Of a DNA stretch of 41,599 nt, positions 36,599 through 39,058 are shown piece by piece. Origin of the DNA: Syntrophaceae bacterium. GTDB taxonomy: Bacteria > Desulfobacterota > Syntrophia > Syntrophales > Smithellaceae. The notes beneath the pieces are model-generated. The model did no database searches and was not told the DNA's origin. It saw nothing but the letters and a program-made list of their open reading frames with translations. Position 1 is the stretch's first letter. Every line of letters begins with the position of its first letter. The stretch lies in the NCBI GenBank assembly GCA_003141615.1, contig PLMV01000094.1, forward strand, positions 1-41,599. The letters are read 5' to 3'. Position numbers and translations under genes: made by a program.

Positions 36599-36718
36599 TA
36601 CCAATTTTAAATCAAAGCGCGGCTTTGTTGGCGTCGTTGTCGGCTTCCTCAACGTATTAGTAATACGCCTCGTCGTCTCCGTCTAGCCGCCTCGATATCA
36701 TCTTTGATTTAAAAAGGT
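36598..36718 (-). repeat. Family A MITE-like element, copy 3 (121 bp)
   Basis: Terminal inverted repeats of about 20 bases: ATACCAATTTTAAATCAAAG on the left, and ATACCTTTTTAAATCAAAG read inward from the right. The interior has CTTTGTTGGCGTCGTTGTC and a CGTATTA/TAATACG hairpin. Its reverse complement shares the ACGAGGCGTATTAC core with 26914-27218. The first base is the last base of the moaE-like stop codon. Confidence 0.82.
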
Positions 36719-36733
36719 ATATTATTCAATTAT

Positions 36734-36779
36734 TTTAGTCGAAAAAACTTTTATCGCGGCGATATCAGTAATTGGGAAG
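36734..36779 (-). repeat. Direct repeat A: stray copy of the gpsA-like gene 3' end
   Basis: 46 bases matching 37864-37909 at 43 positions. Read on the - strand it encodes LPNY-stop-YRRDKSFFD-stop: the true C-terminus of the neighbouring gene with TGG changed to TGA. Same orientation as the real end; offset exactly 1130 bp. Confidence 0.9.
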
Positions 36780-36806
36780 GTAATTAATTATACTGTCCCC
36801 GAAATT

Positions 36807-36867
36807 TCCTAACGCTCCGCTTAACCCGCCGGTGCTTTATCCGGTCGGGTTGGAGCGGTTGTTAGAC
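36807..36867 (-). other. attC-like integron recombination site
   Basis: On the - strand, R'' GTCTAAC (36867-36861) and R' GTTAGGA (36813-36807) bracket an imperfect palindrome. Plus-strand arms pair as 36817-36821 with 36854-36858, 36823-36828 with 36846-36851, and 36829-36832 with 36841-36844, leaving one extrahelical base at 36845 and an 8-base apical loop at 36833-36840. This is the standard attC layout (R, unpaired spacer, L, loop). The HNH gene's TAA lies inside R''. Confidence 0.8.
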
Positions 36868-37584
36868 GCCCTTTGCAAGTTCTTCAATGTTGCCCCTCCC
36901 TTGATTGCAAGCCGCGCACAAAGTTCTTAGATTATCGAAGGTCGTTCTTCCCCCTTTAGAATAGGGTACGATGTGATCGAGATGGAGCACGACTCCTCTC
37001 TCAATTGCTGGGCTGTGGCCGCACAGAACACACCGAAATCCATCCCGCGCTAGTACTCTCAGGCGCAATCGATCAGAAGGACCGCGGGGCAAACTTTCAG
37101 TTGGAACAATTTTTTGTGGAGTCTTCACTATCTCTTGGAATTCAATAACCACGGGTTTGCCCATCCGCCATTCGATGAATCGAAGGCAGGCTTTGGTCCA
37201 CCCTCCAAATCGTGTCTTGTACGGTTGGAAGCTGTATTTTGATCCGGACTTCTCCCATTCATGTCGTGAAGGGCGCTGCCCGAGCTCATTCCAGATCCGT
37301 TCCATTTCAATGAATAGCTCGTCGTCTGAAATCCGCTTCGTCGAACGCGCAGCGAGCTCAATCCCCTGGGCACGAAGCGCTATTCGCAAGGCGCGCATAG
37401 CCTCGGACCAAGAACCATATGCGCTATCCACGCCGCCCCGAGAGATGCCAAGCTTCGCAGAAATGAAGTCTCGCAGACTAAATTCAACGTAGGCAAAGTG
37501 CTTCGCCGCCGCCAGAAGTACTGGCAGGACTTGCTCCTTCCGATATTTATCCGCCCGATGTCTTTCGTATTTGTATTCCATCAT
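36862..37584 (-). CDS. HNH homing-type endonuclease carried as an integron-style cassette
   Basis: A 240-aa protein. Residues 85-135 contain ISDDELFIEMERIWNELGQR...KYSFQPYKTRFGGWTKAC, the 'homing endonuclease associated repeat'. Residues 40-70 may be a weaker copy. The C-terminal HNH domain has a zinc-binding C185-x2-C188, LDHIVPYSKGG (D203-H204), N218 and C223-x2-C226. It should cut DNA. The stop codon is within an attC-like site, and GTTAGAC (37598-37592), a perfect complement of the R'' box, lies 7 bases before the start. The cassette is therefore 36813-37597 (785 bp). No integrase gene is present in the window. Composition is more GC-rich than the AT-rich DNA around it. Confidence 0.9.
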   Translation of the reverse strand: MMEYKYERHRADKYRKEQVLPVLLAAAKHFAYVEFSLRDFISAKLGISRGGVDSAYGSWSEAMRALRIALRAQGIELAARSTKRISDDELFIEMERIWNELGQRPSRHEWEKSGSKYSFQPYKTRFGGWTKACLRFIEWRMGKPVVIEFQEIVKTPQKIVPTESLPRGPSDRLRLRVLARDGFRCVLCGHSPAIERGVVLHLDHIVPYSKGGRTTFDNLRTLCAACNQGRGNIEELAKGV

Positions 37585-37863
37585 TCTATGCGTCTAACAT
37601 TGTTTATATGGATCGGTGTTAATATTACAAACGCCGACACCCTTGTCGGCATAAAACCCCTCAGCAGAAACTGCAATTTTAAGTCTAATAACTTAATATT
37701 AAATAACAATCAACCAATTTTCTGTTTTCTTACTTGGGATATTATCTGGATCGGCATAATATCCCGAAAACTGGGAACGTCGTATTGATTTTATATTTGT
37801 TTCTTTGTAATTCCAATTTATTATTTTTAATTTTTTGATTTTGAACAATATACGATTAAATTG
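37585..37863. other. AT-rich non-coding stretch between the HNH cassette and the gpsA-like gene
   Basis: Contains the cassette boundary GTCTAAC (+ strand 37592-37598), a hairpin GCCGACA...TGTCGGC around 37633-37650, and otherwise AT-rich sequence. I found no second attC upstream of the cassette and no credible ORF. Confidence 0.5.
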
Positions 37864-37909
37864 TTTAGTCGAAAAAACTTTTATCACGGCGATACCAGTA
37901 ATTAGGAAG
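37864..37909 (-). repeat. Direct repeat B: authentic 3' end of the gpsA-like gene
   Basis: The true C-terminal coding end (LPNYWYRRDKSFFD, stop), repeated with three changes at 36734-36779. The two copies flank the HNH cassette region like attachment sites. Confidence 0.9.
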
Positions 37910-39058
37910 AATACGGTACATAAATCTGGATACCTGGCCGATATATTCTTTCGTTCTTTTATCATGCTGACAGGCTTGAATGATCATATCTTTGATGGCG
38001 TCTTTGTTGCCTGCTTCATTAAATATCCGGTAGGCGCAGGAAAAAAGAGGGCTGTACATGTTTTTCTTTTCTAAATATTTATAAACGTTTCTGACCGTAT
38101 TGGGGCCTTCGGGAGTCCCATCAATTTGTTCCAATACACGCAAGTTGGTTTCGATGGGATTGCCGGTATAGAGTTCATAAAAATATTTTCCATAGCGGTA
38201 ATTTTTACTGGCCAGGGACGAAACAGTTACATACATGTCGCCCACGCCTGCCTGGCTGTGGAAAGCCTGAAAACCACCGCCCAAAAGACGGGATAACGAA
38301 CGAATTTCCACGCCGGAACGGGCAAATATGGTGCCGGGGATTGAATCACCCAGCTCCAGCGAATCCGCCAGCCCCTTAATATTCGCCACAATATTTTTTA
38401 AAGCGCCGCAGGCTTCCACCCCGACAATGTCAAAGTTATAATATGAATTTATTTCCTTGCGGTTGAATTTAAGTAAATCTTCCCTGATAATATTGGCAAT
38501 GCGTTTTTTGCCGGCTACTGTTAAACAAACAGGATTGCCCAACGCTATATCCATATCAAAAAACGGCCCTCCAATACACCCAAGCTGATACTTATGCTTT
38601 AAATTGTAAAGATTGCTGTTGATTAGTTGGGAAGGTGTTATCAGCTCCTTGGAAATTTCATCGGAAATCAAACCTTTTATCGGAGAAATAAGACATGTAT
38701 CACCTGCTTTTTTATCAATCATTGGTTTGAGATAATTGAGCAAATCCGGAAGGCGGTTCATGGTTATGGCCAGAATGATAAAATCATTATTTTCGACGAT
38801 GTGTTCCAAATCGTTTGTGGCGTATACTTTGGGCGACAGGCGGGGAACGCTTTCCATTCCACCCAATCGTTTAGCTAAATCTTCTGTTAAGTGGAGGGGG
38901 TTTAAATGATCTCTGTTGATCGCCTTACAAACTTCTGAATCGTGGTAATAAATGGCCACACGTTTGTTATCACGGCCAAATTTATACGCAAAAGATGTGC
39001 CCAAACGTCCCGGCCCAATAATGGCCACTCTCGTTGTATCTAAATTAGAGGTTATCAT
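37865..39058 (-). CDS. NAD-dependent glycerol-3-phosphate dehydrogenase family protein
   Basis: A 397-aa GpsA-like protein. The N-terminal Rossmann turn is VAIIGPGRLGTSFAYKFG (residues 11-28), followed by FIILAITMNRLP, SPIKGL (SxxKG motif) and CIGGPFF. The C-terminal domain has GVEACGALKNIVANIKGLADSL with the catalytic lysine, and RSGVEIRSLSRLLGG. It is about 60 residues longer than E. coli GpsA because of a C-terminal extension. It would make glycerol-3-phosphate for phospholipids, in keeping with the lipid genes nearby, though the extended family is not well characterised. It has a perfect sigma-70 promoter. Its last 14 codons are duplicated 1130 bp downstream. Confidence 0.88.
   Translation of the reverse strand: MITSNLDTTRVAIIGPGRLGTSFAYKFGRDNKRVAIYYHDSEVCKAINRDHLNPLHLTEDLAKRLGGMESVPRLSPKVYATNDLEHIVENNDFIILAITMNRLPDLLNYLKPMIDKKAGDTCLISPIKGLISDEISKELITPSQLINSNLYNLKHKYQLGCIGGPFFDMDIALGNPVCLTVAGKKRIANIIREDLLKFNRKEINSYYNFDIVGVEACGALKNIVANIKGLADSLELGDSIPGTIFARSGVEIRSLSRLLGGGFQAFHSQAGVGDMYVTVSSLASKNYRYGKYFYELYTGNPIETNLRVLEQIDGTPEGPNTVRNVYKYLEKKNMYSPLFSCAYRIFNEAGNKDAIKDMIIQACQHDKRTKEYIGQVSRFMYRILPNYWYRRDKSFFD

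Follow-up and report, generated by a model that had tools for sequence, protein, structure and literature searches.

An HNH endonuclease gene cassette at an orphan attI copy behind gpsA, and dispersed attI docks in related genomes

The 41,599-nucleotide stretch analysed here (the window; contig PLMV01000094.1 of a Syntrophaceae bacterium) contains an HNH endonuclease gene that, together with its attC site and G/TT ends, is an ordinary integron gene cassette. The reading we favour, at a probability of about 0.8, is that this cassette sits at an orphan attI dock and was captured there by an IntI integrase acting in trans, the integrase being absent from, or unassembled in, this genome. IntI would have inserted the cassette at the G^TT of an attI copy at 37598-37765, behind gpsA. 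The attI region of the genus comprises a palindrome, a conserved AT-rich promoter-like block and the core CCGATCCATATAAACAATG^TT, and is present in several copies per genome. Where intI is present, one copy adjoins it; the remaining copies are docks elsewhere, which the same integrase most likely served in trans. We lean slightly towards a broader picture of a distributed integron, in which the attI region (~170-270 bp) is a dispersed, probably mobile docking module and one integrase supplies cassettes to numerous docks on the chromosome, most of them located 3' of host genes.

The HNH gene was identified by ORF and domain searches at 36862-37584 (minus strand). Its 240-residue product carries an HNH_repeat at residues 85-133 and an HNH domain at residues 185-232. 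The stop codon TAA (36864-36862) lies inside GTCTAAC (36867-36861), the R'' box of an attC site at 36807-36867 (minus strand; R'' GTCTAAC ... R' GTTAGGA), and GTTAGAC starts at 37598, 7 bases upstream of the ATG. The cassette occupies 785 bp at 36813-37597 (minus strand), beginning with TTAGAC and ending on the G of the R' box; its G/TT ends were read from the sequence, and the junction is common to the sister genome G010. Folded as single-stranded DNA, the 61-nt attC reached -18.5 kcal/mol (z -5.6; 0 of 200 shuffles as good), and with the R' box of the excised circle (GTTAGAC) the R boxes paired at all seven bases, at -20.4 kcal/mol. Eleven attC sites from relatives' integron arrays, the window site excluded, were used to build a covariance model, which gave a single match in the 41.6-kb window, at 36807-36867 on the minus strand (33.3 bits, E 6.1e-6 for 478 kb); an Rfam scan at gathering thresholds returned no attC and no other family match. 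The locus combines the R''/L''/L'/R' attC and single-strand stem of integron gene cassettes with one ORF ending at R'' in the same orientation and G^TT at both ends. The earlier note had placed the stop codon within the R'' box and GTTAGAC 7 bases before the start, and had derived a 785-bp circle with a perfectly paired attC. These positions and the circle's boundaries hold to the base, and the attC was recovered at the same coordinates by the covariance model and borne out by the single-strand fold.

Upstream of the cassette lies the orphan attI unit (37598-37765, minus strand), recognised by sequence comparison. Positions 37599-37768 were 79-82% identical over 167-173 bp to the intI-adjacent attI of congeners G014, G006, G002 and G009. 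Because the unit is homologous to the congeners' region between intI and the first cassette, it was assigned as an attI copy without intI, and cassettes start exactly at its crossover. Core comparison located the core (37598-37616, minus strand), with the crossover after the G. Alignment revealed a small hairpin, GCCGACA...TGTCGGC (37633-37650, minus strand), and the palindrome GGGATATTATGCCGATCCAGATAATATCCC (37736-37765, minus strand), which marks the outer end of the unit and, at another dock, the insert's left boundary. A block TTGATT-17-TATTAG (37685-37713, minus strand), conserved in attI, could be a cassette promoter to judge from its conservation; a promoter scan gave no strong promoter there, and the block was absent from its list.

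The earlier note described an integron-style cassette without an integrase, inserted at a lone secondary site or left in a cluster of attC sites. The description stands; neither placement does, since the cassette occupies a full-length copy of the genus's attI, one of many dispersed copies, and the window has a single attC. One attC without intI corresponds to a SALIN. A CALIN has at least two clustered attC sites and, with one attC only, the locus is not an attC cluster.

The lack of a visible integrase was confirmed beyond the window: no IntI above the TIGR02249 cut-off was found in the genome assembly (3.54 Mb in 218 contigs, 89.7% complete). The best partial matches in this genome were XerC/XerD-like recombinases, ~30% identical to the congeners' IntI, and the best reading is that the integrase is absent or unassembled. 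Among 197 relatives, 80 gave matches to IntI at E 1e-60 or better; the 16 congeners account for 11 of these. In the congeners' integrons, intI points towards the cassettes, and its 3' end is separated from the first cassette by attI; the attI in the window lacks the adjoining intI of a complete integron. Because no IntI was found in its genome, the cassette is unlikely to be mobile at present.

Copies of attI were dispersed across the genus and family. A search of congeners with the 177-bp attI unit gave 53 matches, spread over 15 of 17 genomes; about 20 came close to full length, and most ended at the crossover. When no more than one mismatch was allowed, the 19-base core was found at 69 sites, in 25 of the 51 family genomes; a reversed-pattern control gave 0. 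Most of these copies lay at a distance from intI. Three full attI copies were present in the genome of the window. Among the docks examined, intI adjoined five; at the remainder, tblastn detected no intI or remnant adjoining attI within up to 2.5 kb upstream (shorter sequence at a few). Many orphan docks followed the 3' end of a host gene with which they shared their orientation.

Of the orphan docks, 26 had 900 bp or more of sequence downstream, and 17 of these were followed by a same-strand attC within ~1.2 kb (by the model, counted by hand). Among a further 19 loci fetched by the core, same-strand attC lay downstream in 12 and opposite-strand attC in none. No attC was found within ~1.3 kb of the attI cores C39, C175, C87, G002_C323, G002_C248, G003_C9, G015_C49 and others. 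The longest ORF ran in the attI-to-attC direction in all 47 attC-bounded cassettes at orphan and intI-borne loci, and docks held one to ten cassettes. The first cassettes at the orphan docks L230 (G010:C120) and L216 (G009:C1) contained an Mrr-type restriction nuclease gene and a second, different HNH gene. Elsewhere in the genome of the window, L241 (C202:20653-24382) carried a six-attC array in which no attI core was found, contig C95 carried two attC sites, and C61 and C68 carried one each.

Two attI copies in this genome, C34 and C175, were 96% identical over 268 bp and then diverged into different host genes, direct evidence for copying of the attI unit. An orphan attI of G004 was 96% identical to the intI-borne attI of G001, and an ORF-less first cassette (92-93% identical) recurred at the orphan dock C34 and, in G014 and G002, at the attI beside intI. 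G001 and G002 had a common dock behind cutA with unrelated first cassettes. At the TraB-PilT dock, attI was missing from G013, G009 and G004, present in G008 and reduced to a left-end remnant in G001, and from this comparison the left edge of the attI unit was placed at the palindrome GGGATATTAT. On the right flank, a motif CTTTCAAATAGTAATCC... followed the last attC at several docks, not all. The conserved motif CTTTCAAATAGTAATCCTCAATTCTGACAACTGCC was also observed after the last attC at several docks (L212 1-700, L222, L235, L023, L246), and in another genus too. The idea that docks and their cassettes are enclosed by a terminal inverted repeat (CTTCCTGAAA...TTTCAGGAAG) was considered and rejected as unsupported.

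In the window, the dock lies just downstream of a gpsA-like gene of the same orientation (37865-39058, minus strand; ORF and domain search). As gpsA and moaE are ~11 bp apart in four congeners, the window carries an insert of ~1.27 kb. By sequence comparison, a direct repeat has its first copy at the 3' end of the intact gpsA-like gene (37834-37909, minus strand) and its second, which covers the gpsA 3' end and sequence beyond it, at 36703-36779 (minus strand; 46 bp at 93%, 77 bp at 83%). The flank after the cassette (TTAGGAAATTTCGGGGACAGTATAATTAATTAC; 36780-36812, minus strand) is similar to sequence after the last attC of G002_C41. In the sister genome G010, the gpsA dock had flanks 93% identical to those of the window and the same junction, CAATG^TT; its first cassette contained a CAP12/Pycsar TIR-domain gene, not HNH. 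The attC of this CAP12 cassette was found by eye and folded, the attC model having missed it, and a second cassette begins after it, at the contig end.

Across 16 congeners, the gpsA-moaE intergenic region is an insertion hot spot: it was empty in four species, contained different unrelated genes in others (in G003, an rsgA-like gene together with Sel1 repeats) and cassettes in two. A hairpin-bounded repeat (TTTTAAATCAAAG ... CTTTGATTTAAAA, ~110 bp) occupied 36605-36714 of the window, on the stretch that separates moaE from the gpsA copy, with similar copies on other contigs of the same genome and at the TraB-PilT locus of G001. The sequence ATTATACTGTCCCCGAAATTT at 36784-36808 resembled a repeat near other cassette ends (C199 of the same genome, G002_C41) and may be linked to a REP-type element.

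Within the family and order there are relatives of the HNH gene beside attC sites, for which the earlier note had proposed a search. In the closest of them, from G021, an attC follows the gene immediately (46.8 bits); further cassette-borne relatives were found in G046, G077, G023 and an array of G015, and in G034 an HNH gene starts just past an attI core. Because these relatives are also cassette-borne, the HNH cassette is recurrent in the family and order and not a chance packaging. Plasmid, viral and genome contigs gave no close relatives, only partial or distant ones, and a Leptospira plasmid homologue was without attC. The nearest similarities in PDB and PADLOC were generic HNH domains, and searches of open-access papers gave nothing relevant on HNH integron cassettes. 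Cassettes scanned at other docks encode, besides a further HNH protein, an Mrr-type restriction nuclease and the CAP12 TIR protein, which makes a defence-like role plausible for the cassette nuclease.

As an alternative, IntI might have inserted the cassette off target, at a secondary site of attG type in the genome with no more than a resemblance to attI. This would agree with the lack of a nearby integrase and with off-target insertion as an accepted origin of CALINs (PMC8618304). It is very unlikely here, because the attI homology covers ~168 bp including the palindrome and hairpin, is common to many loci, and far exceeds a short site. Self-mobility through HNH cleavage is scarcely credible: the protein has the HNH nuclease domain of a homing endonuclease element and a 'homing endonuclease associated repeat', but the boundaries are IntI-type G/TT, the HNH relatives in the family and order occupy separate attC cassettes, and unrelated genes have the same cassette architecture. 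The two modes of mobility proposed in the earlier note are not supported: IntI alone explains the G/TT ends, the HNH relatives are ordinary attC cassettes, and nothing points to a nuclease that moves itself.

Deletion of intI from a complete integron once present at the gpsA locus has a parallel at G011_C179, where attI with its 10-attC array directly adjoins sequence that normally precedes intI; this is evidently an intI deletion, and an exception in kind among the orphan docks. Against such a history in the window, the gpsA gene that precedes the dock is intact, the 2.5 kb upstream contain neither intI nor a remnant of the sequence before it, and, given the short gpsA-moaE spacing in four congeners, there was no ancestral integron behind gpsA. 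In addition, the history would have to be repeated at each of the many host-gene docks, with an integron inserted and its intI exactly removed, and we regard it as improbable. How docks spread is a separate matter. The attI unit and its cassettes may be cargo of another element, e.g., a small integrative element that uses the gpsA 3' end for attachment and leaves a 46-77 bp direct repeat. Such repeats flank the dock inserts at the window (77 bp) and at G005_C65 (58 bp) only; none were found at the other docks examined, so they are not a general dock feature, and no recombinase or transposase gene is present in the insert. Spread as cargo is thus a tentative proposal that we doubt, and it is compatible with capture of the HNH cassette at an orphan attI dock.

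The HNH cassette is of a known type, and the dispersed attI docks appear to be new as far as the literature searched shows: no description of multiple, orphan or dispersed attI was found in open-access literature, most subscription papers being outside its scope. Such docks would provide an added origin for CALINs and SALINs and would allow first-position expression at many loci at once. The distribution suggests that, in the genus, many docks across the chromosome could have relied on one integrase. As the gpsA dock carries HNH in one species and CAP12/TIR in the sister species, it allows dock turnover to be tested directly. IntegronFinder limits its attI search to class 1 (PMC9024848), so dispersed docks would be missed; with current tools seeking attI in class 1 only, they may be widespread and overlooked.

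Several known systems resemble this arrangement in part. As in sedentary chromosomal integrons, attC cassettes are found at attI with a G^TT crossover, and the congeners' IntI score above the TIGR02249 cut-off. In known integrons, a single attI near intI is typical (PMC9024848), whereas attI copies in this genus are scattered through the genome without intI. The window resembles CALINs and SALINs, usually attributed to off-target insertion, intI loss or rearrangement (PMC8618304), in having one attC and no intI nearby, and differs in the presence of a copied attI as dock. Delta-attI-type gene cassettes, in which a partial attI replaces attC at the downstream end of the cassette and is functional with IntI1 (PMC12901181), also place attI sequence away from its normal position; the window instead has a complete attI as an upstream dock beside chromosomal genes. 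The attG sites (Loot et al., 2024), as cited in PMC11023631 and PMC12901181, are genomic cassette insertion sites that diverge from classical att sites. They likewise put cassettes in the genome outside an integron, whereas the docks of this genus are full attI homologues.
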